Shown here: positions 3,546 to 21,456 of the stretch, in pieces | Layout of the letters: each line of letters opens with the position of its first letter | Position numbering within the stretch: the first letter of the stretch is position 1 | From: Leptolyngbya sp. Heron Island J | Lineage (GTDB): Bacteria > Cyanobacteriota > Cyanobacteriia > Phormidesmidales > Phormidesmidaceae | Direction: 5' to 3' | Assembly (NCBI RefSeq): GCF_000482245.1 | Contig: NZ_AWNH01000011.1 | Coordinates: forward strand, 1-64,000 | Length of the DNA stretch: 64,000 bases | Position numbers and translations under genes: made by a program | The notes under the pieces: model-generated | Told to the model about the DNA's origin: nothing | Seen by the model: the letters and a program-made list of their open reading frames with translations, nothing else | Databases searched by the model: none

Positions 3546-4556
3546 ATGAAACTACTGTGCATTACTGATCCCATCACTCACCCTGATTTTGATACGACGA
3601 TTGGCCTCTATCAACTGTTTGCAGCCAATCCAGCGATTGAGTTTTTCCATGCTCCCGTATCTAGTATTGATGGCTCCAGCCAGTTTCAATCCGTACCCAT
3701 TTCTGGACACCTCAGCAAAGAGGCCTTCTTCCAATTGGATAGACAGCCGCGTATTGCTCTACCTGCGTCCGAGTTAGATTTAATTTTCAACCGCGCTGAT
3801 GAGCCGGTTCCAGCTGATTTTTTTGACCATCTCAGTCAATTGGAGACAACAGTACGGTTTGTTAATCAACCTTCTCAAGTTGCTTATACCCGACGAAAAG
3901 ATTTTCTAGAATCCTATGGGCAAGCCTATTTACCGGACCATATTTTTTCCGCTGACTATGACGAGATTGAAGCCTTTTTCCAGCGGTTTAATCCCATAGT
4001 TGCCAAAATGAACGTAAGCTATGGCGGCAAGGGTGTTTACAAAATTTGGCAAGTGGGTGACACCGTTTTTACTGACAATATTCAGGAAGGGTGTTTGACG
4101 TATCCATCCCTGCGAGCGGCTATTGCCCACCTAAAACATATTGACTCCAGTAGTGACTATGAGTTTGTCCGCTTTCTGAAAAATATTGATGTAGGCGACA
4201 AACGAGTGTTGGTGGTCGATGGCGAAATCTATGGGGCGCTATTGCGTAAGGCGAAAACAGATACCTGGGTGCACAATATTACAGCTGGGGCTGCTTATTA
4301 TACGGCACCTGTTACCGAGCGTGAGCGCATGATCATTGCAGAAACCTATGATCACTATAGCCGCCGAGGCGTGTATACCTTAGGTTACGATTTTCTAATG
4401 GATGATGATGGTGAGTGGATTTTAAGCGAAGTGAATGCTGGCAATATTGGCGGCTATGACTGGCTAGAAGAGATCACAGGTGATCCGATTTTGGAACGTC
4501 TGACTCAGCGGTTGTTTCAGTTGGCTAAACAGTCAATCAGGGCTCTGAATAGCTAG
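3546..4556 (+). CDS. ATP-grasp protein, glutathione synthetase-like
   Basis: 336 residues from ATG 3546 (a TTG two codons earlier is also in frame). N-terminal MKLLCITDPITHP resembles the start of prokaryotic glutathione synthetase, and FNRADEPVPADF, VRFVNQPSQV and TRRKDFL follow the GshB layout. The ATP-grasp core shows VAKMNVSYGGKGVYKI (P-loop-like lid), DVGDKRVLVVDGEIYGALLR and a C-terminal LSEVNAGNIGGYDWLEE in place of the usual metal-binding FxEINxxSP. It is likely a carboxylate-amine ligase, possibly GshB itself or a relative with another substrate. The segment before ATG has no clear Shine-Dalgarno site. Confidence 0.8.
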   Translation: MKLLCITDPITHPDFDTTIGLYQLFAANPAIEFFHAPVSSIDGSSQFQSVPISGHLSKEAFFQLDRQPRIALPASELDLIFNRADEPVPADFFDHLSQLETTVRFVNQPSQVAYTRRKDFLESYGQAYLPDHIFSADYDEIEAFFQRFNPIVAKMNVSYGGKGVYKIWQVGDTVFTDNIQEGCLTYPSLRAAIAHLKHIDSSSDYEFVRFLKNIDVGDKRVLVVDGEIYGALLRKAKTDTWVHNITAGAAYYTAPVTERERMIIAETYDHYSRRGVYTLGYDFLMDDDGEWILSEVNAGNIGGYDWLEEITGDPILERLTQRLFQLAKQSIRALNS

Positions 4557-4590
4557 CATTTACCATCGCCGGTTGATATATGCACGTAAA

Positions 4591-5079
4591 TTATTTTATA
4601 AATGGCAGCAAATCAAACTCTTGGCGAATATCTAAAAGAGAACGGTCAAGTAACGGCTCAAATTCGAGAAATGGCAATAGTTTTTGACGCCTGCGAGTCT
4701 TAAACCAGATCGGGATTAGTTCTACGATAACCCCAGGAAGCACTCTCAAAACTGCTCCATATAACCAAAGCATTCCCTTCTCTTTGATCATGTCTTCGTA
4801 CATAACATCAACAGCAGGAGAGTTTCTCATTTTGAGATACACCTGAAACGTACACTCACTTGTCCACCAAAAGAGAGGTAGAATTTTGAGCTCATCGTAC
4901 ATTTCCGTATCGCACCCATAAATCACATGTCCTACGTCATGTGCTCGCAAGATTTTTCCGAAGTCTGAAGGTTGTGTTGACGGATCGGTGACCTGTGGAT
5001 TGAGGGCATAGTACTCCTTTAAACCCTCTTGTAGGGTCTGGATGCTGTGCTTATCCATGTAGCAAGGCTTCTGACTCAT
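4591..5079 (-). CDS. Coq4-like protein
   Basis: 162 residues from ATG 5079. The motif HDVGHVIYGCDTEMYDE fits HDxxHx11E, the zinc-ligand signature of Coq4, which decarboxylates and hydroxylates the quinone ring in ubiquinone synthesis and scaffolds the Coq complex. The C-terminal half has a hydrophobic stretch (LYGAVLRVLPGVIVELIPIW), as in membrane-associated Coq4. Cyanobacteria make plastoquinone rather than ubiquinone, so the substrate here is unknown. The frame extends to ATG 5121, but that start and ATG 5079 lie in or at the edge of the palindromic operator; ATG 5058 is also possible. Divergent from the TetR gene, which probably controls it. Confidence 0.72.
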   Translation of the reverse strand: MSQKPCYMDKHSIQTLQEGLKEYYALNPQVTDPSTQPSDFGKILRAHDVGHVIYGCDTEMYDELKILPLFWWTSECTFQVYLKMRNSPAVDVMYEDMIKEKGMLWLYGAVLRVLPGVIVELIPIWFKTRRRQKLLPFLEFEPLLDRSLLDIRQEFDLLPFIK

Positions 5080-5113
5080 ACTATTACGATACGATACTGT
5101 ATCGTAATAGTAT
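5078..5113. promoter_or_regulatory. Perfect 15-bp-arm palindrome, TetR operator candidate
   Basis: ATACTATTACGATAC at 5078-5092 is the exact reverse complement of GTATCGTAATAGTAT at 5099-5113 (6-bp spacer). A nested perfect palindrome, ACGATAC-T-GTATCGT, spans 5091-5105. It lies between the divergent Coq4-like and TetR genes and covers the likely promoters and the Coq4-like start, as expected of an autoregulating TetR repressor. Confidence 0.85.
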
Positions 5114-5123
5114 AATAGCATCT

Positions 5124-5699
5124 ATGAATAATTCTAGAAAAAAATCATCAGGAAGACCTCGTAGCGCAGAATCTCACCAGGCAATGCTGAAAGCCACACT
5201 AGAGCTTTTAGCGGAAGTTGGCTTTGAGAAGATGAGCATTGATGCGATCGCAACTCGTGGTGGAGTAGGGAAGACGACCATTTATAGGCGTTACAAGAGC
5301 AAAGATGAACTGGTTGCTGATGCTATTGAAAGTATGAGAGAAGAGGTTTTGATTCCTGATACAGGGAGCCTTTGGAGCGACATGGATGCACTGATTGAAA
5401 ATGCGGCCCAAATAACCTTCACCCCACTTGGACGGCAGGCTGTTTCAATGATTATCAGTAGTGCAGCGAGCAATCCTGGGTTTGCTCAAATTTATTGGGA
5501 GAAATATCTACAACCACGACGCCAAGCCTTCGCAGTGGTTATTGAACGAGCAAAAGCAAGACATGAAATTGCAATGAGCCTGGATGCAGGCTTAGTTTTT
5601 GATACGATGAGCGGCATTATGCTCTATGCATTGATCTTCCCACCTAAAGAATCTTGGACAAGCTATATCCGCCATGCTCTAAGTTTGCTGCTCAAATGA
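5124..5699 (+). CDS. TetR/AcrR family transcriptional regulator
   Basis: 191 residues. The N-terminal TetR helix-turn-helix is clear: ATLELLAEVGFEKMSIDAIA, then ARGGVGKTTIYRRYKSKDEL-type sequence (here TRGGVGKTTIYRRYKSKDEL). It is preceded by a basic tail (RKKSSGRPRS), as in many AcrR proteins. The C-terminal ligand domain is divergent and all-helical, so the inducer cannot be guessed. The start is 10 bp past a perfect palindrome that it probably binds, repressing both itself and the divergent Coq4-like gene. Confidence 0.9.
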   Translation: MNNSRKKSSGRPRSAESHQAMLKATLELLAEVGFEKMSIDAIATRGGVGKTTIYRRYKSKDELVADAIESMREEVLIPDTGSLWSDMDALIENAAQITFTPLGRQAVSMIISSAASNPGFAQIYWEKYLQPRRQAFAVVIERAKARHEIAMSLDAGLVFDTMSGIMLYALIFPPKESWTSYIRHALSLLLK

Positions 5700-5775
5700 G
5701 CGTTAACTAAATTATCTGATAGATAAACTATTCTCTATGGGCGTGCAAAAGTGATCAGAAGTTGTTATCAACGGC

Positions 5776-6771
5776 TTATCTAAATTGTGCGTCTGTTTGT
5801 ACTGTTGCCCCTTTTTGCTCAGCGATAAACCCTGCAACGGCCTGCAGACCTTCAATGCGAGTGTTGCCACCAACCCCATGCATATGTGGATAAGTGGCCT
5901 CGAAGTCAAAGGCGATCTGTTCAGCTTCGTCCGCGTCAAGAATATTGTCTGCAATTGCTGTCGTCACAGCAGCATCAAGATGGGTGAGGCTTGCGCGCTG
6001 TGGGGCAATAAGATCCCTCAGCATAGCCTCGCGACCGTGACCAATATAGGCAATAGTCTCAGGGGGAAAGCGGGTTGCGATCGTGTCTAGCTGGATCAGC
6101 CATGATGCCAGGCTTTCTAGCGGAGCAGGAATAAAGCCATTGTTTAGTAAATCTCCTGCAAACAGTAGGCCATGGTCGGGCAGATAAATCAGCGAGGCTG
6201 CCTCTGATTCGCTAGCACCAAGCTCAATGATTTCGATAGTGACACCGCCAATATCAAGGATATCGCCATTGGCAATCACATTGTCAGGCAGGTTGTCAGA
6301 GATAACCGCCTGGGTTGGAAAGATGTCCCCATGTCTTGCTTTCCGCGCAGCATTGAATCCTCGGCTGTCTTCATTCATCGAGCGGATAGTTGTCGCAGAT
6401 GCATAGACATCCGCCTCTGGAAAGGCGGACCGATAAACCGATAGGCCACCATAATGGTCGGTGTGAGCATGGGTGATGAAAATCGCCAGAACAGGCTGGT
6501 CAAGAGCCTGTATTTGTCGAACCGCCCGTTCTGCCTCCACGAGAGTTCGCAGTGTGTCAATGACGATGATGCCATCTGGCGCTTCGATCCAGTGGCTGTT
6601 TACAGTATCCACCAGCGCCGGTTGCGCGGCAAAAGTGTCGATTGTGATCGTAGGAGAAATCGCATCTGCTTGACGGCTATCCAGGCTAGTGTAGCCAATG
6701 AGAGCGAGTAAAGTAGCTATACAGAGAATGACGTTTGTGAGTCGGGCACGTTGTTTTTTGAGGGGGTTCAT
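5776..6771 (-). CDS. Metallo-beta-lactamase-fold hydrolase, exported
   Basis: 331 residues with an N-terminal basic stretch and a hydrophobic segment (VILCIATLLALIGYTS, residues 14-29), so it is exported or membrane-anchored. The zinc site is intact: ITHAHTDHYGG (HxHxDH), then LLFAGDLLNNG and AYIGHGREA for the later ligands. The N-terminal WIEAPDGIIVIDTLRT is the usual first strand of the fold. A C-terminal helical part (LDAAVTTAIADNILDADEAE) resembles MBL proteins annotated as class B beta-lactamase-like or quorum-quenching relatives. The substrate is unknown. There is no operon partner; it faces the TetR gene convergently. Confidence 0.85.
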   Translation of the reverse strand: MNPLKKQRARLTNVILCIATLLALIGYTSLDSRQADAISPTITIDTFAAQPALVDTVNSHWIEAPDGIIVIDTLRTLVEAERAVRQIQALDQPVLAIFITHAHTDHYGGLSVYRSAFPEADVYASATTIRSMNEDSRGFNAARKARHGDIFPTQAVISDNLPDNVIANGDILDIGGVTIEIIELGASESEAASLIYLPDHGLLFAGDLLNNGFIPAPLESLASWLIQLDTIATRFPPETIAYIGHGREAMLRDLIAPQRASLTHLDAAVTTAIADNILDADEAEQIAFDFEATYPHMHGVGGNTRIEGLQAVAGFIAEQKGATVQTDAQFR

Positions 6772-7008
6772 AGTGAAAACTCCTGAATTAGTTTCAAAAC
6801 ATTTTGGATGACGCCGCCGACTACGCGAGCAAAGGACAGACCCACTACTTCCATAAGAACAGTGTTGACATCATTGAATCTGGCTTGAGATAGAAGAGAG
6901 GTAGCGCTTGCTGTTGTCCCATGTAGTTCTCAGTGTGACGAGCTATATGATCTGTGAGCTGAATTTAACCTGAAAAAAAAATCATCGGTTAGCTCATAGC
7001 TCTCCTCG

Positions 7009-7110
7009 AGAGTCAACGTCCCTTTCCCTTAGGGAGAGGGATTTAGGGTGAGGGCCAACCCCGACTTCTAATACTTTCAGCCATTGTTTCTGACTTATGT
7101 ATACACGGTA
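7009..7110 (-). repeat. Dispersed repeat, copy C (inverted)
   Basis: Read on the minus strand it goes from CCGTGTATACATAAGTCAGA through AATGGCTGAAAGTATTAG and CACCCTAAATCCCTCTCCC to GACTCT, nearly base for base the same as copy A at 841-938. The match between sites 6 kb apart suggests a mobile or recombining sequence. Confidence 0.75.
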
Positions 7111-7589
7111 GCCCCCTGGGAGAGGACTGGGGTGAGGGCTATCCGAACATTAGCAAAGTTGAAACTGTTTGATTCCCATTCCTAAGTAGACATTTCTCAG
7201 CGGCCTCGTCGGGATGGCTACACACATTTTTCAAGATGTTGCTTCCTACACAGAGATTTTGCTCTTAGCAGAAGACGATGTGTCAGTTAGTTAGACTGTC
7301 CACTTGCCTCTTCGCAGTGAATATTAGACTGATAAAGTTACCTTCACAAAGGAACTTTTAAACAGCATCTCCAACGGACATCTTTGGTGTAGAGCATGTG
7401 TATTACACCTTGAAATTAAATACTCGCTTTAAAGTCCGAAAACCTTAAAAATAGGGTGTTCGATATTTGTATTCGTGCTGATAGGTTTTCTATCGCTCAC
7501 GTTACCAGGGTTAATCTTCCACAGGACAGGATTTGTTCCTTTATTACTGGTTTGTCTATCTTGATCCTTGCCTAGCAAAACTAGCTTAG

Positions 7590-13822: not shown

Positions 13823-14509
13823 ATGCAACCCCACATTCTTTTAATTAATATCCGGGCTGACCTTGTTCGTTCTCTAGACACCCAACTCTCTGCGCAGGGA
13901 TATCGCGTCAGCCAGCTAGAGGACATTCCCGCTCCAGCTGTGGTGCAGCAGCTGCGTCCTGATCTGCTGGTGATGGTTTTACCGGAGGACAATAATCCTA
14001 ATTTGGCTCCCTGTCGTCGTCTATCTCTTTCCCTCAACCAGATACCAATTATGTTGTTGGGAAAAGATAATCATAGCGATCGCATCGCCAGTCTAAACGT
14101 CTGCGCCAATGATTATTTGCCCATGCCCTTTGCCATGGAAGAATTTATGGCGCGGGTGCGAGCGAAACTGCGGCGAATTTCCTGGAAAAAAACAGACGAA
14201 TTGTTTATTCTTGCTAATTTACATGTAGATGCCCGCGTCAGGGAAGTTCGTTATGGCGAACATGCGATTGATCTAACGGCTAAAGAGTTTGACCTGCTTA
14301 GGTATTTGATAGCTCATCCCCGACAAGTGATGACTGTTCAACAAATTTTGGATGAAATTTGGCCCGATTCTGTATTGAGCGATAGCAGAAATATTGTCCA
14401 AGTTTATGTAGGATCTCTACGTCGGAAACTTGGTAATGCAGCAGACCTACTGCAGACAGTGCGAGGCGTGGGCTATGTGTTAAAAGATCCGGCTACCGTC
14501 CAGGGTTAG
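13823..14509 (+). CDS. OmpR-like regulator with degenerate receiver
   Basis: 228 residues from ATG 13823 (a TTG at 13802 is in frame). The C-terminal winged helix is intact: IDLTAKEFDLLRYLIAHPRQ, WPDS and VYVGSLRRKLG, ending QTVRGVGYVL. The N-terminal domain keeps the receiver fold but loses its chemistry. The acidic pair after strand 1 reads NI (HILLINIRAD). The phosphoacceptor Asp is replaced by Val (DLLVMVLPED). The Thr/Ser position is Leu (IMLLGK). The conserved Lys is Met (YLPMPF). It must act without canonical phosphorylation. It is the first gene of the efflux run and probably its regulator. Confidence 0.85.
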   Translation: MQPHILLINIRADLVRSLDTQLSAQGYRVSQLEDIPAPAVVQQLRPDLLVMVLPEDNNPNLAPCRRLSLSLNQIPIMLLGKDNHSDRIASLNVCANDYLPMPFAMEEFMARVRAKLRRISWKKTDELFILANLHVDARVREVRYGEHAIDLTAKEFDLLRYLIAHPRQVMTVQQILDEIWPDSVLSDSRNIVQVYVGSLRRKLGNAADLLQTVRGVGYVLKDPATVQG

Positions 14510-14603
14510 CAAGCATACCTGGCTATGGCACGAGTCGTCACCTGTTTTTTTGTCATAACAAAATTCTTGTAATACCACACACGAGACCAGGACAAATACA
14601 GCC

Positions 14604-15911
14604 ATGGAAACACAATCTGCCATCCCCCCTACCGAGTCTCCTATCCTGTCCCCGGCTCCTACGCGGCCTCGGTGGTGGCTCTGGCTGTTAGCGGGCTTTC
14701 TAGGGGTAGTGGGAGGCTGGTTTATTTGGAGTCGATTGCAGCAAGATCCGACACCTGTTGCGATCGCAGCCCAGGCCACTGCGGTTGAAACTGAAACAGC
14801 TCGCTCTGCTCCGGTAAGAGAGTTTTCAGAATTTGTTGGAGCCTTAGAAGCTCAGGAACGGGTGATGCTACGGCCCGAGGTCGAGGGACGAATCACCCAG
14901 GTGTTGGTGTCAGCAGGCGACCGGGTGGCAGCGGGTACTCCGATTATTCAGCTCAGCCCGGAGCGGCCCCAGGCCATAGTTAGCAGTGCTGTTGCCGATA
15001 TTGAAGTGGCGCGGGCTGCCCGTAGTGCCGCCCAGGCAGAAATCTTGGAGGCCGAGGCCGAGCGAGATAGCGCCATTGCTGAGCGAGAGCTGCAAAATAG
15101 CGAATATACCCGCACGCAATCTCTGGTGGCGGCGGGAGCCCTGGCTGAACAGTCGCTAGATCAAGTGGGGCGTAATCAGGATGTTGCGATCGCGGCCCTA
15201 ACCGCAGCCGAACGGCGGATTCAAACCGCCCGCGCCAACCTGGCCGAAGCAAATGCCGCCCTGCAGCGGGCAGAATCCAATGCTGCTGTCGCCAGTGAAG
15301 ACCTATCCGACTACCAGGTTGTTGCCCCTATCGACGGAGTGGTAGGTGATCTGCCAGTCGAAGTTGGTGACTATATCCGAGCCGGAGAAATGATCACCGC
15401 CCTGACTAGCAATCAAGCCATGGACCTACGTCTATCAATTCCTGTGGAACGCAGCAATGAGTTACGACCAGGGCTACCGGTAGAACTTCGCACCCAGGCC
15501 AGTGGTGCTCCCCTGGTCACCGGTCGCATTAGCTTTGTTGCTGAACGGGTGGAAGCAGGAGCACAGTCAATTCTGGCTAAAGCCTCCTTTCCCAATCCCA
15601 ACGGACAGCTACGGGATGAACAGTTTGTCCGCGCTAACGTTGTCTGGACAGAGACCCCTGGCGTCATGGTTCCCACTACTGCCATCTCCCGCGTTGGCGG
15701 TCAGAGTTTTGCATTTGTTATGGAACCCTCCCCAGAAACTGACAGTGAATTTGTCGCTGTTCAACGTCCCGTACAGCTTGGCATAATTGAAAATAACCGC
15801 TATCACGTTATCAGCGGCATCGACACCGGAGAAACCATTATCACCGCCGGTATTTTACGCCTGGCCGACGGAGCCCCCGTTGTCCCAGATGATGCCGTCA
15901 CCCCAAATTAA
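14604..15911 (+). CDS. RND efflux periplasmic adaptor (HlyD/AcrA type)
   Basis: 435 residues. A Pro-rich cytoplasmic tail precedes one membrane segment (WWLWLLAGFLGVVGGWFIW, about residues 24-42). Then come the split lipoyl halves (LRPEVEGRITQVLVSAGDRV and YQVVAPIDGVVGDLPVEVGD), a long coiled-coil hairpin between them rich in AEAE/ERELQ, and a beta-barrel and membrane-proximal domain (LRDEQFVRANVVW, ISGIDTGETIITAG). It bridges the inner-membrane pump to an outer-membrane channel; no TolC-like gene is in the window. It is an anchored protein, not a lipoprotein. It lies 94 bp after the regulator and 14 bp before the GUN4 gene. Confidence 0.93.
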   Translation: METQSAIPPTESPILSPAPTRPRWWLWLLAGFLGVVGGWFIWSRLQQDPTPVAIAAQATAVETETARSAPVREFSEFVGALEAQERVMLRPEVEGRITQVLVSAGDRVAAGTPIIQLSPERPQAIVSSAVADIEVARAARSAAQAEILEAEAERDSAIAERELQNSEYTRTQSLVAAGALAEQSLDQVGRNQDVAIAALTAAERRIQTARANLAEANAALQRAESNAAVASEDLSDYQVVAPIDGVVGDLPVEVGDYIRAGEMITALTSNQAMDLRLSIPVERSNELRPGLPVELRTQASGAPLVTGRISFVAERVEAGAQSILAKASFPNPNGQLRDEQFVRANVVWTETPGVMVPTTAISRVGGQSFAFVMEPSPETDSEFVAVQRPVQLGIIENNRYHVISGIDTGETIITAGILRLADGAPVVPDDAVTPN

Positions 15912-15925
15912 AGACAGAAAATACT

Positions 15926-16603
15926 ATGACCTCCCCCAACTCTCAATCAGACCCTACAGCTCAAAATCCTGACTCCACTGAAAACTCCCCCAGCCCAGAA
16001 CTGCTTGCTATCCAACAGATGATGGGAGAACTCTCTGCCCTACGGCAAGAAGTCAGTCAGCTAGCTGCACTCCCCCAGCAGGTCCGCCAGATCGAACGCC
16101 GTCTGATGGTGGTGGGCGACCTCTATCGATATGAGACATTACACGAGCAGCTAGCCAATCAACAATGGTTTGCCGCCGACAAAGAAACCGTCAGGCTAAT
16201 TGCCGATATTGCTGGAGTGTCTGACCTGGAAGATCTCAGCCCCCGTGAGATTCGCAGCTTTTCCTGTGGTGAGCTCCAGGTAATCGACCGGCTATGGACC
16301 ACCTATAGTGAAGGTCGATTTGGCTTTAGCATCCAGCTAAAAATCTATCAGGACCTCGGCGGTAGCTTAGAAAGCACCATCGGAGAAGACCTGCAGCTCA
16401 CCCAACGCTGGGGTGCGGCCCTGGGCTGGCGCGAAGGTGTTACCGATCAACAACCCGAAGGCAACCGCTGGCGCAAATGCGACGGGCTGGATTTCTCCCT
16501 TAATGCCCCTAAAGGCTGTCACCCCTCCCGCTGGTGGAACTCTCCTTATGGCTCTCGCATGACCAACTATTTTCTCAATCGTCTGATTACCTGTGAGATG
16601 TAG
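15926..16603 (+). CDS. GUN4 domain protein
   Basis: 225 residues. The first 75 are polar and then coiled-coil-like (LRQEVSQLAALPQQVRQIER). The GUN4 domain follows from about residue 75: LANQQWFAADKETVRLI, SPREIRSFSCGELQVIDRLW, TTYSEGRFGFSIQLKIYQDL, LGWREG and a C-terminal aromatic stretch. GUN4 proteins bind protoporphyrin IX and Mg-protoporphyrin; the stand-alone cyanobacterial Gun4 helps Mg-chelatase. This one is longer at the N-terminus and sits inside an efflux operon, so it is a paralogue, possibly a tetrapyrrole sensor or delivery factor for the pump (inference). No membrane segment. Confidence 0.85.
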   Translation: MTSPNSQSDPTAQNPDSTENSPSPELLAIQQMMGELSALRQEVSQLAALPQQVRQIERRLMVVGDLYRYETLHEQLANQQWFAADKETVRLIADIAGVSDLEDLSPREIRSFSCGELQVIDRLWTTYSEGRFGFSIQLKIYQDLGGSLESTIGEDLQLTQRWGAALGWREGVTDQQPEGNRWRKCDGLDFSLNAPKGCHPSRWWNSPYGSRMTNYFLNRLITCEM

Positions 16604-16676
16604 AAAAAAGATCTTTACATAATTTCGCCATAGCGGGGCAGGACGTCAGCGTGAGGCTTCGATAGTGAGGCTTCGA

Positions 16677-16714
16677 CTGAGCGGTTCGACAGTGAGCTCA
16701 GCCGAACCGCTCAG
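16677..16714. repeat. Palindrome with 12-bp arms before the pump gene
   Basis: CTGAGCGGTTCG at 16677-16688 pairs with CGAACCGCTCAG at 16703-16714 across 14 bases. A pyrimidine-rich tract (about 16755-16808) follows up to the pump start. It could attenuate transcription between the GUN4 and pump genes, or be an inserted palindromic repeat of the family at 1543 and 7875. Confidence 0.6.
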
Positions 16715-16811
16715 CCGAACGCACAAGACACCGCCCCTAGGAGATTTTTCCCGCCTTCGTTCTCCATCCTCCGTCTCTATCCTCCCCCTCTCGCCCCCTC
16801 CCCCTCTCACA

Positions 16812-19800
16812 ATGTTCGTCGAAACCTTTATCCGCCGCCCTGTCCTCACCATGGTGCTCTCCATCATCATCTTTATGGTGGGGCTGATCGTGATTCCAAC
16901 GCTGCCCGTGGAACAGTACCCTGACATCAGCCCGGTACAGGTGGTGGTCAGCGCTAACTATATTGGTGCTAGTTCGGAAGTGGTGGAAGAAACCGTAACC
17001 ACCGTGCTAGAGCGAGAGATTAATGGCGTTAACGGTATGCGCTATATGAACTCCACCAGCAGTGACGATGGTACCAGTTCCATTACTGTGACCTTTCGCC
17101 AGGGGTACAACCTGGATATTGCTGCCGTCGATGTGCTGAATCGGGTATCGATTGTCACCCCACAGCTGCCCCAGGAAGTACAGCGTACAGGGGTGACGGT
17201 GCGTAAACAATCCAGCAGTGTGGTCGTGGGCATGGCTATTTACAGCGAAGAAGAAGGGCTGTACGACGACAACTTTATTAGTAACTATGCCGACCTCTAT
17301 GTGCTGGATGCCCTGCGCCGGATTCCGGGGGTAGCCCAGATTCAGCCTTTTGGTGAGCGTCGCTATGCCATGCGCCTCTGGCTTGACCCGGTCAGGATGG
17401 CGGCTCGGGAGATTACCACTGAGGACTTAGTAGAGGTGATTCAGGAACAAAATCTGCAGGTGGGGGCAGGCAGCATTGGTCAGCCGCCGACAGAAGACGG
17501 GCTGACCTACCAGCTCACCCTGCGCACCCAGGGGCGCTTAGAGGATGTCAGCGAATTTGAAAACCTGGTGATTAAAGCTGAAGCAGACGGCAATCTGGTT
17601 TACTTTCGGGATATTGGTCGTGCAGAACTCGGGGCCGAAAGCTACGGTACTTTTGCCCGCTATCGACAACAGGGAGCCATTGGCTATCGGATTGTGCAAA
17701 CGCCAGGCACCAATGCCCTGGAAGCGGCAAACGCCGTTAAAGAAACCATGGCCAGACTGTCAGCAGACTTTCCGCCAGGGCTAACCTATGCCATTCCCTA
17801 CGACCCCACCTTATTCGTGGTGGAGTCCCGTAAGGAAGTGGTCAATACCCTGCTACAGGCGGTGGCGCTGGTGGTTTTAGTCTTGTTTTTGTTTCTGCAA
17901 AACTGGCGCGCCACAATTGTGCCTGCGGTGGTGATTCCGGTGGCGCTGATCGGCACCTTTGCCTTTATTAAGGCGTTTAATTTTTCCATCAATAGTCTCA
18001 CCCTGTTTGGTTTGATTCTGGCCACAGGCATGGTTGTAGACGATGCCATCGTCGTGGTTGAAGACATTGCTGGCAAAATTCAGGAAAAGGGAATGCGGCC
18101 TCACCTGGCAGCCATTGAAGCCATGCGGGAGCTAACGGGGGCGGTGATTGCCACCTCGCTGGTGCTGTTGGCCGTATTTATTCCAGTGGCCTTTTTCCCC
18201 GGTACGACGGGCCAACTTTATCGACAGTTTGCCCTGACCATTGCCTTTGCCATTACGATTTCCACCTTTAATGCCCTCAGTTTGACCCCGGCTCTCTCGG
18301 CGCTGTTGATTCGCTCAGGGCAACAGCCCGGTGGTTGGCCGGGACGCTTTTTTGCCTGGGTCAATCGCGGTATTGATGCCACCCGCCGGGGCTATCAGTC
18401 GAGCCTGGGACGACTGACCCGCTTAAAGACAACCGTGCTGATTTTGTTTGTGGCGGCCCTGGGTACGGCTGCCTGGCTCTATACCACGGTGCCCACGGCG
18501 TTTCTGCCAGAAGAAGATCAGGGGTATTTAATCAGCCTGATTCAGGGGCCAGAAGGGTCGTCAGTGGACTATACCAGCGACATTATTGACCAGGTGGACC
18601 AGACTTATTTGGATATTTCCGAAGTAGAAGGGACGTTTTCTTTAGGAGGGTTTGGCTTTAGCGGCAATATCCCCAATAACGGCGTCATCTTCTCTCCCCT
18701 GATTCCCTGGGGTGATCGTCCTAGAGAAAACCAGTCAGCACAGGCCGTACTCAATCAGGTTTGGCCGCAGTTTGGCCAGATTAAAGAAGCCAATGTGATT
18801 GCTTTTAATCCTCCAACAATTCAGGGTTTGGGCAGCATCAGCGGGTTTGTCTTTCAGCTACAGGACCAGGGCAATAACGATCTGCAAACGTTTTTGCAGG
18901 CTAAGGATGAACTGGTGGCTGCCGCTAATGCAGCCCCAGAACTGCAAAATGTTTTTACCACCTATACGGCCAATGCACCCCAGCTAGAGGTGGATATTGA
19001 TCGCAGTCTGGCAAAAGCCATGGGGGTGAATATCGATGAGATTCTCAATACGCTGCAGGGCTTTTTGGGCTCCCGCTATGTGAATGATTTTAATGCCTTT
19101 GGCCGGACCTATCGGGTTTACATTCAGGCCGATGCGCAATTTCGTTCTAATCCTAATGATATTGGTAATCTCTATGTCCGTTCTGAGACGGGTGAGATGA
19201 TCCCCCTGGATACCCTGGTGAGCATTTCACCCACTACAGGTCCCCAAACCATTAACCACTACAATCTATTTCGCTCGATTGAAATCAACGGTTCTCCAGC
19301 CTCCGGCTACAGTTCTGGACAAGCGATCGCAGCGATGGAACGGGTTGCCAATGAAGTCCTGCCCAACTCCATGGCCTTTGAATGGTCCGGTATTTCCCTA
19401 GAAGAACTAGAATCCGGCGGTCAGGCTCCAATTATCTTTGGTTTGGGAATTATCTTTGTCTTTTTGGTACTGGCGGCCCAGTATGAAAACTTTGTTGACC
19501 CGGTGATTATTCTGCTGGCGGTGCCGCTGGCTATGTTAGGAGCCCTGCTGGCAGTTTCTCTACGGAGTTTGCCCAACGATGTGTACTGTCAGGTGGGGCT
19601 GGTGATGCTGATCGGCTTGGCCAGTAAAAACGCCATTTTGATTGTGGAATTTGCCAATCAGCTGCGGGATGAAGGGCTATCTATTGTACGAGCTGCCGTA
19701 GAAGCATCCCAACAGCGACTGCGACCGATTATTATGACGGCTATTTCCACCCTATTGGGGATTTTCCCTCTGGTGATTGCGACAGGGGCCGGTTCCGCCA

Positions 19801-20000
19801 GCCGTCAGTCTCTGGGCACCGCCGTTTTTGGGGGCATGATTGTTTCCACGGTGTTGAGCTTGTTTGTTGTCCCTGTCCTCTATATCGTCATTGTCAGCTT
19901 TTTCTGCCGGTTTAAAGATAACTGTCGCGATCTCTCTCCGATTCCACCGGAAATGCCTGCAGAGGTCACTCCTGAAATGGCACTTTCTAGTCACAAGTAG
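16812..20000 (+). CDS. RND efflux pump, HAE1/AcrB type
   Basis: 1062 residues from ATG 16812; the frame is open 49 codons further upstream, but only this start gives the standard MFVETFIRRPVLTMVLSI N-terminus and it excludes the palindrome. Typical features are PVEQYPDISP, NGMRYMNSTSS, the proton-relay motif ATGMVVDDAIVVVEDI in transmembrane helix 4, and GLASKNAILIVEFANQLRD with the relay Lys. Twelve membrane helices are expected, with large periplasmic loops. It exports hydrophobic or amphipathic compounds with the adaptor encoded upstream. Close spacing (31 bp) to the kinase gene. Confidence 0.95.
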   Translation: MFVETFIRRPVLTMVLSIIIFMVGLIVIPTLPVEQYPDISPVQVVVSANYIGASSEVVEETVTTVLEREINGVNGMRYMNSTSSDDGTSSITVTFRQGYNLDIAAVDVLNRVSIVTPQLPQEVQRTGVTVRKQSSSVVVGMAIYSEEEGLYDDNFISNYADLYVLDALRRIPGVAQIQPFGERRYAMRLWLDPVRMAAREITTEDLVEVIQEQNLQVGAGSIGQPPTEDGLTYQLTLRTQGRLEDVSEFENLVIKAEADGNLVYFRDIGRAELGAESYGTFARYRQQGAIGYRIVQTPGTNALEAANAVKETMARLSADFPPGLTYAIPYDPTLFVVESRKEVVNTLLQAVALVVLVLFLFLQNWRATIVPAVVIPVALIGTFAFIKAFNFSINSLTLFGLILATGMVVDDAIVVVEDIAGKIQEKGMRPHLAAIEAMRELTGAVIATSLVLLAVFIPVAFFPGTTGQLYRQFALTIAFAITISTFNALSLTPALSALLIRSGQQPGGWPGRFFAWVNRGIDATRRGYQSSLGRLTRLKTTVLILFVAALGTAAWLYTTVPTAFLPEEDQGYLISLIQGPEGSSVDYTSDIIDQVDQTYLDISEVEGTFSLGGFGFSGNIPNNGVIFSPLIPWGDRPRENQSAQAVLNQVWPQFGQIKEANVIAFNPPTIQGLGSISGFVFQLQDQGNNDLQTFLQAKDELVAAANAAPELQNVFTTYTANAPQLEVDIDRSLAKAMGVNIDEILNTLQGFLGSRYVNDFNAFGRTYRVYIQADAQFRSNPNDIGNLYVRSETGEMIPLDTLVSISPTTGPQTINHYNLFRSIEINGSPASGYSSGQAIAAMERVANEVLPNSMAFEWSGISLEELESGGQAPIIFGLGIIFVFLVLAAQYENFVDPVIILLAVPLAMLGALLAVSLRSLPNDVYCQVGLVMLIGLASKNAILIVEFANQLRDEGLSIVRAAVEASQQRLRPIIMTAISTLLGIFPLVIATGAGSASRQSLGTAVFGGMIVSTVLSLFVVPVLYIVIVSFFCRFKDNCRDLSPIPPEMPAEVTPEMALSSHK

Positions 20001-20031: not shown

Positions 20032-21456
20032 ATGTCTTCTTTGATGGGTACCAGGGTAATCGCTATGGCCGATCTACACGCAATCCTGAAGCAGGTTTCA
20101 GTCTTTTCGAAACTGCCCCCTGAACAGATTCAATGGCTCATTGCCCAAGGTCAACAAACCTGGTTAGAATCTGGAGAGATTCTTCGTCACGCCGGTGATG
20201 AGGCGGACAGTGTATTTGTCTTGCTCAACGGTCAGCTGCGGGTTTACCAAGATATGGAAAGCCATGAACTGGTGCTGGCTACCTATGAAACCCTCGATTT
20301 TTTTGGTGAACTGCCTATTTTGACTGGGGAAGAGCATTTTTGGGCCAGCGGTCGTGCGATTACTCCCTGTCATATTTTTGAGCTACCCAAAGCAGACTTT
20401 TGGCAGCTGCTGTCCCAGTGTCCCTCTGTCACCATGGGGGTGCTTAGCACTATGGCCCAGCGGATGCAGGATGTGCAAACTCTCTATAAACAACAGGAAA
20501 AACTGACGGCCCTGGGAACTCTGGCTGCAGGGCTGGCCCACGAGATGAATAATCCAGCTACAGCTGCTCTACGAAGTGCCCGAGAACTCCGGCAGCTCTT
20601 ACCTACACTAACAGCCTATGGTGTACAGTCTCCTGCCCGAACACCAAACCAACAACAACAGCTGGCTATACTGCACCAGGGGGTGATTCAGAATACGAGT
20701 TCTACAGTCCTTGATCCGCTCACCCGCAGCGATCGCGAAGATGAACTGGTGGCCTGGCTGGAGCAACATGCGATCGCAAATCCCTGGACTCTTGCTCCCG
20801 CCCTAGTTTCCGCAGGGCTCAAGCCCGAAAAACTGGACTATCTTGCTAGTCACATCCCCTCCGACACTTTGGATACTGTGCTGCAGTGGCTGACCCACTC
20901 ATTGACCAGCTTTGAATTACTCCACACGATTCACACCAGTGTCGATCGAGTGTGTGAGCTAGTAGCTGCCATTAAAGACTATTCCTTTATGGATCAGGCT
21001 CCCCTACAAACTATTGACATTCACCACGGGTTAGAAAGCACCCTGACTATTCTCACCTATCGCCTCAAACAAGCCGACATCACGATTCAGCGTCACTACG
21101 ACTGCACCCTAACCCCGATTCAAGCCTACGGCAGTGAATTAAACCAGGTTTGGACCTATCTGATTGATAATGCCATTGATATCCTTATTAACTGCCCATC
21201 TCCCACCATTGAGCTACGGACTAGCCGGGAAGGCAATCACCTGCTGGTAGAAATCTCCGATAACGGTCCCGGCATTCCCCTAGAGATTCAACCGCGAATT
21301 TTTGAACCCTTTTTCACTACCAAGGAAGTGGGTAAGGGCACCGGGTTAGGTCTGGACATGGCTTATCGTATTGTCAAAAAACACAGCGGAGACATCTATT
21401 TCAATTCATCTCCTGGAGAAACTCGTTTTTATGTGAGGCTACCCATTTCTGAGTAG
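20032..21456 (+). CDS. Histidine kinase with cNMP-binding-like sensor
   Basis: 474 residues, no membrane segment. Residues about 15-140 form a cyclic-nucleotide-binding fold: LRHAGDEADSVFVLLNGQLR, then FFGELPILTGEEHFWASGRA. The phosphate-binding cassette keeps GELP but lacks the PRTA/S arginine, so canonical cAMP binding is doubtful. The kinase has TLAAGLAHEMNNPATAALR (H box), LNQVWTYLIDNAIDI (N box), ISDNGPGIP (G1) and GKGTGLGLDMAYRIV (G2). The NNPA H-box resembles kinases that dispense with a classic DHp. A GGGGC site precedes ATG 20032; ATG 20065 is an alternative. Its partner is not the adjacent regulator, which lacks the Asp. Confidence 0.88.
   Translation: MSSLMGTRVIAMADLHAILKQVSVFSKLPPEQIQWLIAQGQQTWLESGEILRHAGDEADSVFVLLNGQLRVYQDMESHELVLATYETLDFFGELPILTGEEHFWASGRAITPCHIFELPKADFWQLLSQCPSVTMGVLSTMAQRMQDVQTLYKQQEKLTALGTLAAGLAHEMNNPATAALRSARELRQLLPTLTAYGVQSPARTPNQQQQLAILHQGVIQNTSSTVLDPLTRSDREDELVAWLEQHAIANPWTLAPALVSAGLKPEKLDYLASHIPSDTLDTVLQWLTHSLTSFELLHTIHTSVDRVCELVAAIKDYSFMDQAPLQTIDIHHGLESTLTILTYRLKQADITIQRHYDCTLTPIQAYGSELNQVWTYLIDNAIDILINCPSPTIELRTSREGNHLLVEISDNGPGIPLEIQPRIFEPFFTTKEVGKGTGLGLDMAYRIVKKHSGDIYFNSSPGETRFYVRLPISE

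Follow-up and report, generated by a model that had tools for sequence, protein, structure and literature searches.

What a GUN4 protein does beside an efflux pump is the question raised by a 64,000-nucleotide stretch of Leptolyngbya sp. Heron Island J (contig NZ_AWNH01000011.1, positions 1 to 64,000), the whole of which is referred to below as the window. A preliminary description of this DNA had placed a 225-residue GUN4 protein between a resistance-nodulation-division (RND) periplasmic adaptor and an AcrB-type RND pump, 14 bp after the adaptor gene, and had proposed that the ligand of the protein or the substrate of the pump is a tetrapyrrole or a similar planar compound. The gene order and the 14-bp gap were confirmed by coordinates, Pfam, and NCBIfam. 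Comparative analysis established that short GUN4 proteins of this kind are recurrently associated with an adaptor and a pump, that the window protein has a GUN4 fold in a predicted model, and that its loop at the canonical tetrapyrrole-binding site is remodelled. The favoured explanation, which in our judgement has about an even chance of being correct, is that the short GUN4 proteins form a distinct, free-standing group whose members serve HAE1-type RND efflux systems as a dedicated sensor or accessory. Individual cases are given by their L and G numbers.

Recurrence of the linkage and its history

Relatives of the window GUN4 gene were collected by a peptide-pattern scan of a species-genome collection, which gave 46 loci, or 48 with the window and an Acaryochloris plasmid. 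An adaptor and a pump stand beside the GUN4 gene at 27 of these 48 loci, a proportion that is biased because one search peptide was CHPSRWWN and the sample was thereby selected for that motif. Two less biased samples consisted of 59 related genomes, in which genes above 100 bits were taken, and of 386 genomes drawn evenly across cyanobacteria. The related genomes contained 14 short GUN4 genes, 11 of them no more than 400 bp from an HAE1-like pump (in G012 the evidence is a pump fragment at a contig edge); the remaining three comprise one with the adaptor only (G010) and two with neither adaptor nor pump (G028, G014). The chance that a gene in these genomes lies within about 1 kb of an HAE1-like pump was estimated at about 0.0011, using 57 such pumps where the pump table has 59 rows above 880 bits, and 0.015 of the 14 genes would be expected to do so, relatedness being ignored. 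In the phylum-wide sample, a 42-row profile recovered 29 short GUN4 genes (27 genomes) at 170 bits or more, with the rest at 131 bits or less, and six of the 29 are pump-linked.

Canonical and other GUN4 genes served as controls. Neither pump nor adaptor was found in the flanks (about 1.5 kb) of 25 canonical and 23 other GUN4 loci, and a pump was found at 16 of 40 short-GUN4 loci, a set that counts the window and the G046 locus twice and shares several loci with the 48. A strain-specific accident was rejected, as the arrangement recurs in the peptide scan and in both genome samples; the survey across cyanobacteria that the preliminary description had called for thus finds the linkage well beyond this strain. 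The adaptor-pump pair contains or directly adjoins the GUN4 gene in several lineages, often with gaps below 150 bp, and some other gaps at linked loci are 200 to about 1000 bp.

The order of the three genes varies. The GUN4 gene lies between adaptor and pump in the window, L005-L009, L014, and L021, follows the pump in the Calothrix group, L142-L145 (adaptor-pump-GUN4), and precedes the adaptor in the Scytonema group (GUN4-adaptor-pump); GUN4 and pump are convergent in L026, and in L139 the GUN4 gene stands between pump and adaptor on the opposite strand. On the Acaryochloris plasmid the GUN4 gene overlaps that of the adaptor, and the pump gene begins 8 bp further on. This system (L005, Acaryochloris marina MBIC10699) may move between strains, because the plasmid that carries it is typed as conjugative.

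In a tree of 96 GUN4 rows (three duplicate rows removed beforehand; L047 set as linked and L146 as unassigned by hand), a well-supported branch parts 79 short GUN4 proteins from 17 other GUN4 domains. The linked (34) and unlinked (34) states require at least 11 changes on this tree, and well-supported branches alone force three, counted on linked and unlinked rows alone. Linked pumps occupy three separate parts (three changes) of a pump tree built with FastTree, for which 26 unlinked pumps were picked by similarity to the window pump; L165 counts as unlinked but may be the second half of the L058 locus, which a contig break divides, and the pump-tree count is still three without it. Several linked pumps share 47-55% identity with the window pump, less than the unlinked pump of G054 (67%). 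Without a functional tie, neighbourhoods with such differing pumps and gene orders would be difficult to account for; a single gain followed by several losses and rearrangements may also be the history. The final weighing of the explanations rests on the adjacency counts.

Fold and remodelled ligand loop

A model was obtained with AlphaFold from the window protein and 40 fetched rows, and its fold was compared by Foldseek and structural matching. The mean predicted local distance difference test score (pLDDT) was 80.8; residues 1-20 scored below 50, the N-terminal helices at 24-60 are of low confidence, and all 10-residue blocks from residue 71 on reached at least 85 except 201-210, at 77, the block with the WW loop, where the modelled GUN4 domain is least reliable. 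The best structural match of the predicted model was 4xkc (Z 18.8, root mean square deviation 2.1 Å over 140 residues), eight GUN4 entries were matched at Z 17.0-18.8, and the next match had Z 4.3. On this model the window protein is predicted to be of GUN4 fold.

Published ligand determinants were mapped through PDB alignments, a profile comparison, and an alignment in which 22 canonical sequences were placed together with 79 short ones; the equivalence of Sy-F196 and At-F191 (Synechocystis and Arabidopsis numbering) is our own count on the PDB alignment. The canonical set was chosen by the string GHLPL (22 of 25 loci; L204, L209, and L212 left out) and the window subclade was defined by CHPS plus WWNSP, so that the columns concerned are conserved by choice. 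In Arabidopsis GUN4 the substitutions F191A, R211A, and R211E raise the porphyrin dissociation constant about 2- to 12-fold (PMC8967248), and LxNxLR is the bilin motif of GUN4 (PMC10156173). The Sy-F196/At-F191 column holds Phe in all 22 canonical proteins and in one of the 79 short ones (Leu in 53, Trp in 19), and the Sy-R214/At-R211 column, Arg in 22/22 canonical proteins, is Tyr or Phe in 79/79 short proteins; both porphyrin-affinity residues are replaced in the window protein, by Leu188 and Tyr208. The last three positions of LxNxLR are intact in every canonical protein and in none of the short ones, in which two residues are inserted before the Asn column (WW in 77 of 79). Asn itself stands at the aligned column in 51 of the 79, the window included, 48 of these coming from the subclade defined with an Asn-containing string; the four motif positions of the window protein are S201, N205, P207, and Y208, only Asn being kept. 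The Sy-R217 column is Lys or Arg in all 79 short proteins (Arg in the window protein), and core Trp, Phe, Gln, and Gly positions are common to short and canonical GUN4. The fold and part of the pocket are thus kept, and another conserved loop takes the place of most residues known to bind tetrapyrroles. Loss of all porphyrin-binding residues, which the preliminary description had named as a sign against its proposal, was found for the most part (F191, R211, and most of LxNxLR) and not in full, as Asn and the Sy-R217 Arg remain.

Cysteines are a further conserved feature. C114, C185, and C223 are invariant in the 42-row alignment A1 and none of them lies within a search peptide; across the 79 short proteins, Cys is present at C114 in 71, at C198 in 71, at C223 in 78, and at C185 in 48. 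C198-H199 lay within a search peptide, and their invariance in the peptide-found set is partly selected. No signal peptide or membrane segment was seen on inspection by eye in the window GUN4 protein, which is probably cytoplasmic.

Comparison with described systems sets the short proteins apart. They share fold and core residues with canonical GUN4, the Mg-chelatase cofactor (Synechocystis sll0558, Arabidopsis GUN4), and differ from it in the branch that separates them, the broken LxNxLR, the loss of Arg214 and (in 78/79) of Phe196, the WW insertion, and, at the linked loci, the efflux genes nearby. GUN4 domains fused to kinases, caspases, trypsin, and TIR have been proposed as sensor domains in cyanobacteria (PMC7159879), likewise as an allosteric module; the short proteins are free-standing (about 183-255 aa) and their partner is a separately encoded pump system. 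The paralogue clade with sll1380 described by Rockwell & Lagarias 2023 (PMC10156173) also lacks the full bilin motif, and according to that paper none of its members retains the critical Asn, unlike the 51 short proteins with Asn at the aligned column. That paper was the only one on sll1380 found in the literature search, and no report of the GUN4/RND-pump pairing was found among the papers listed by the literature searches, in which coverage of subscription papers was limited. The adaptor and pump belong to the same families as AcrAB-type HAE1 RND systems, to which the window adds a GUN4 gene. AcrZ of E. coli, a small accessory that modulates AcrB, is unlike short GUN4 in protein type.

The window locus and neighbouring genes

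The features of the locus are listed in Table 1; all five genes, from regulator to kinase, share one strand. The pump open reading frame is open from a GTG at 16665, and its likely start is the ATG at 16812 (MFVETFIRRP), the ACR_tran match beginning at residue 51 of the longer frame. The window pump passes TIGR00915 (1316.5 bits, cut-off 940) and NF000282 (1291.6 bits, cut-off 1250); the linked pumps L049, L144, and L121 pass the former (1145-1155 bits) and fall below the cut-off of the latter (1164-1177 bits). A heavy-metal RND identity was rejected, the window pump scoring 408 bits against the CusA/CzcA cut-off of 701. No outer-membrane factor was found among the eight window proteins scanned with Pfam, the genome not having been searched for one, and the window GUN4 protein had no NCBIfam match at E 0.001.

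Table 1. Features of the adaptor-GUN4-pump locus in the window
Feature	Position	Strand	Evidence or remark
OmpR/PhoB-type response regulator	13823..14509 (start 13802 or 13823)	+	receiver scores under the Pfam threshold; candidate local regulator
RND periplasmic adaptor (membrane fusion protein)	14604..15911	+	HlyD_D23, HlyD_3; TIGR01730 (RND_mfp family) 204.6 bits (cut-off 94.9)
Short GUN4 protein, 225 aa	15926..16603	+	Pfam GUN4 PF05419 124.4 bits (cut-off 29.2)
Altered ligand loop GCHPSRWWNSPYGSRM of the window GUN4 protein	residues 197-212		alignments
Predicted 12-bp stem-loop, GUN4-pump gap	16679..16712	+	T-run absent by eye
HAE1/AcrB-type RND pump	16812..20000	+	ACR_tran 1180 bits, TIGR00915, NF000282
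Histidine kinase with cyclic-nucleotide-binding domain	20032..21456	+	begins 31 bp past the pump

The predicted stem-loop lies in the 208-bp gap between the GUN4 gene and the pump ATG, and the longer pump frame passes through it. It was rejected as a dispersed repeat (a single genome copy at up to 3 mismatches) and, for want of a T-run, as an intrinsic terminator; an RNA-processing or differential-expression element is possible. The Leptolyngbya genome has four GUN4 loci, namely a canonical one (contig C64), that of the window, a 983-aa open frame (C115), and a 255-aa protein (C61). Relocation of the canonical gene beside the pump was rejected, as the canonical copy is on another contig and on a separate side of the tree. 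Strong relatives of the OmpR-type regulator were found among the 34 other linked loci in L008 only, with weaker ones in L007 and L012, and relatives of the cyclic-nucleotide-domain kinase lie near short GUN4 at linked (L008, L014) and unlinked (L015, L027, L114) loci.

Tetrapyrrole genes were sought by tblastn (E 0.001) with queries from the same genome (two haem oxygenases, two ferrochelatase-family proteins, and four bilin reductases) at 34 linked loci (544 kb), the window, and 33 unlinked loci. None of these three families, the only tetrapyrrole families tested, was found at the linked loci or in the window; a bilin reductase lies about 4 kb away at two unlinked loci of one genus (L135, L138). 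A haem-binding HTHP gene stands just upstream of the Acaryochloris plasmid system, which also has a nitroreductase. Other neighbours at linked loci include AraC (window and five others), TetR (L142-L145), MerR and CMD genes (window, L006, L007), a metal-sensitive repressor (L118 group), short-chain reductases (L028), and aldo-keto reductases. These neighbourhoods look more like a toxic-compound or redox response than pigment synthesis, with HTHP favouring the haem side.

Pfam scans of 30 neighbours, mostly at unlinked loci, found no common partner. A second context, in which a pump was not seen, recurs at L015, L017, L027, L030, and L114: the genes after short GUN4 there encode an ABM monooxygenase (L017, L030), a response-regulator/thioredoxin-reductase fusion, or both, families assigned by Pfam on the L030 copies only; the cyclic-nucleotide-domain kinases of L015, L027, and L114 lie close to short GUN4. 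In L010/L140 short GUN4 follows a glucose/sorbosone dehydrogenase gene. Relatives of that gene sit just past the pump at L006 and L007, which gives L010/L140 the look of a locus without its former adaptor and pump. In one genus (g58; L120, L122, L125, L127, L128, L129) it adjoins ChpXY (CO2 hydration) and DUF1823 genes (Pfam on L129 only), and in L116 (8069-9918) two short GUN4 genes flank a 226-aa protein without a Pfam family, a relative of which adjoins GUN4 in L137. Among linked loci, a CemA-family gene is beside GUN4 in L118 and L121, and XisH/XisI genes lie between GUN4 and pump in L118 and L124 (Pfam on L118 only). A locus from a metagenome-assembled genome named Candidatus Gracilibacteria (L016) is ordered as in L013 (Hydrococcus) and is probably mis-binned; L013 also has, beside short GUN4, a ribonucleotide reductase large subunit (3937-7272) with LAGLIDADG and intein-splicing matches.

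Competing explanations and significance

As a dedicated sensor or accessory, the short GUN4 protein would bind a small amphipathic or planar molecule in its cytoplasmic GUN4-fold pocket, candidates being a toxic metabolite, a photo-oxidised pigment product, or a xenobiotic; alternatively, its conserved cysteines may sense redox state. The bound or oxidised form would raise pump activity at the membrane, on the cytoplasmic side of the pump, or would raise expression through neighbouring regulators, and the pump would then expel the compound. The regulators and oxidoreductases at linked loci (AraC, TetR, MerR, metal-sensitive repressor, nitroreductase, reductases) fit a xenobiotic or redox response.

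Several observations weigh against such a role. The 79 distinct short GUN4 rows comprise 34 linked, 34 unlinked, and 11 with linkage state unassigned, and 19 of the 29 phylum-sample genes form one clade without a linked member (18 unlinked, one on a short contig), three of the four others not linked to a pump being unlinked and one cut by a contig end. Close relatives of the window protein in G028/L140 (77% identical) and G014/L141 (75%) are encoded with no pump beside them, and their genomes have no pump above 66% identity to the window pump elsewhere; because these two relatives have the gene without the pump, the coupling is not obligatory. They count, with the other unlinked members and the monooxygenase and thioredoxin-reductase-fusion loci, against a strict pump subunit. 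Regulator types vary between linked loci with no single shared regulator, the 208-bp gap and stem-loop may weaken co-transcription of GUN4 and pump in the window, and the GUN4 tree, quickly built and long-branched, has a change count that takes short-branch relatives as separate rows. RND pumps draw substrate from the periplasm or the outer leaflet, and for this reason a cytoplasmic GUN4 protein could not pass substrate to the pump directly.

The many unlinked members, the two close relatives without a pump, and the pairing of some unlinked GUN4 genes with an ABM monooxygenase, a thioredoxin-reductase fusion, or cyclic-nucleotide-domain kinases would also suit a shared regulon, in which short GUN4 is an independent stress protein (a ligand scavenger or oxidoreductase partner) that never contacts the pump and clusters with it as both answer the same stress. 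Against this explanation, which we consider rather unlikely, several lineages have the gene inside or immediately next to the adaptor-pump pair. The proposal that the protein binds tetrapyrroles and that a porphyrin or bilin is the export substrate or the gating signal of the pump draws on the GUN4 fold, the retained Asn and Sy-R217 Lys/Arg, the HTHP gene of the plasmid system, and the export of protoporphyrin by tripartite MacAB-TolC of E. coli (PMC4263509), though that pump is of the ABC type. It is weakened because Arg, Phe, and LxNxLR are replaced, the first two being residues whose mutation weakens porphyrin binding in Arabidopsis (PMC8967248), and because no gene of the three tetrapyrrole families was found near the 35 linked loci. 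A tetrapyrrole ligand or substrate is not supported by these results and seems decidedly unlikely. A thiol or metal switch, in which cysteines 114, 185, 198, and 223 with His199 would make the protein a redox- or metal-responsive regulator and not a small-molecule binder, is very unlikely: the conservation of C114, C198, and C223, the thioredoxin-reductase fusions adjoining some unlinked loci, and the metal-sensitive repressor of one linked group point towards it, but C185 is shared by only 48 proteins, C198-H199 was partly selected by the search, and the pump falls outside the CusA metal type.

On balance, short GUN4 is probably a dedicated pump sensor or helper rather than part of a porphyrin exporter. 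In a bolder and unlikely form of this reading, a fourth, cytoplasmic GUN4-fold subunit would gate or license tripartite efflux according to thiol state or to a ligand inside the cell (another planar toxin or a photosensitising product of tetrapyrrole breakdown), through the new loop xWWxSP[Y/F]GxK; if true, this would link photosynthetic status to drug-type efflux. The porphyrin role proposed in the preliminary description stands unproven and less likely, and its observation of the linkage and of a GUN4 domain has held. The usual description of an RND system has three parts, pump, adaptor, and outer channel, and a recurrent GUN4-fold partner across pump lineages would be a new type of accessory. 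Through it, one group among the numerous uncharacterised GUN4 paralogues would gain a function open to testing, and there would be a handle on what the GUN4 fold can sense outside chlorophyll synthesis.

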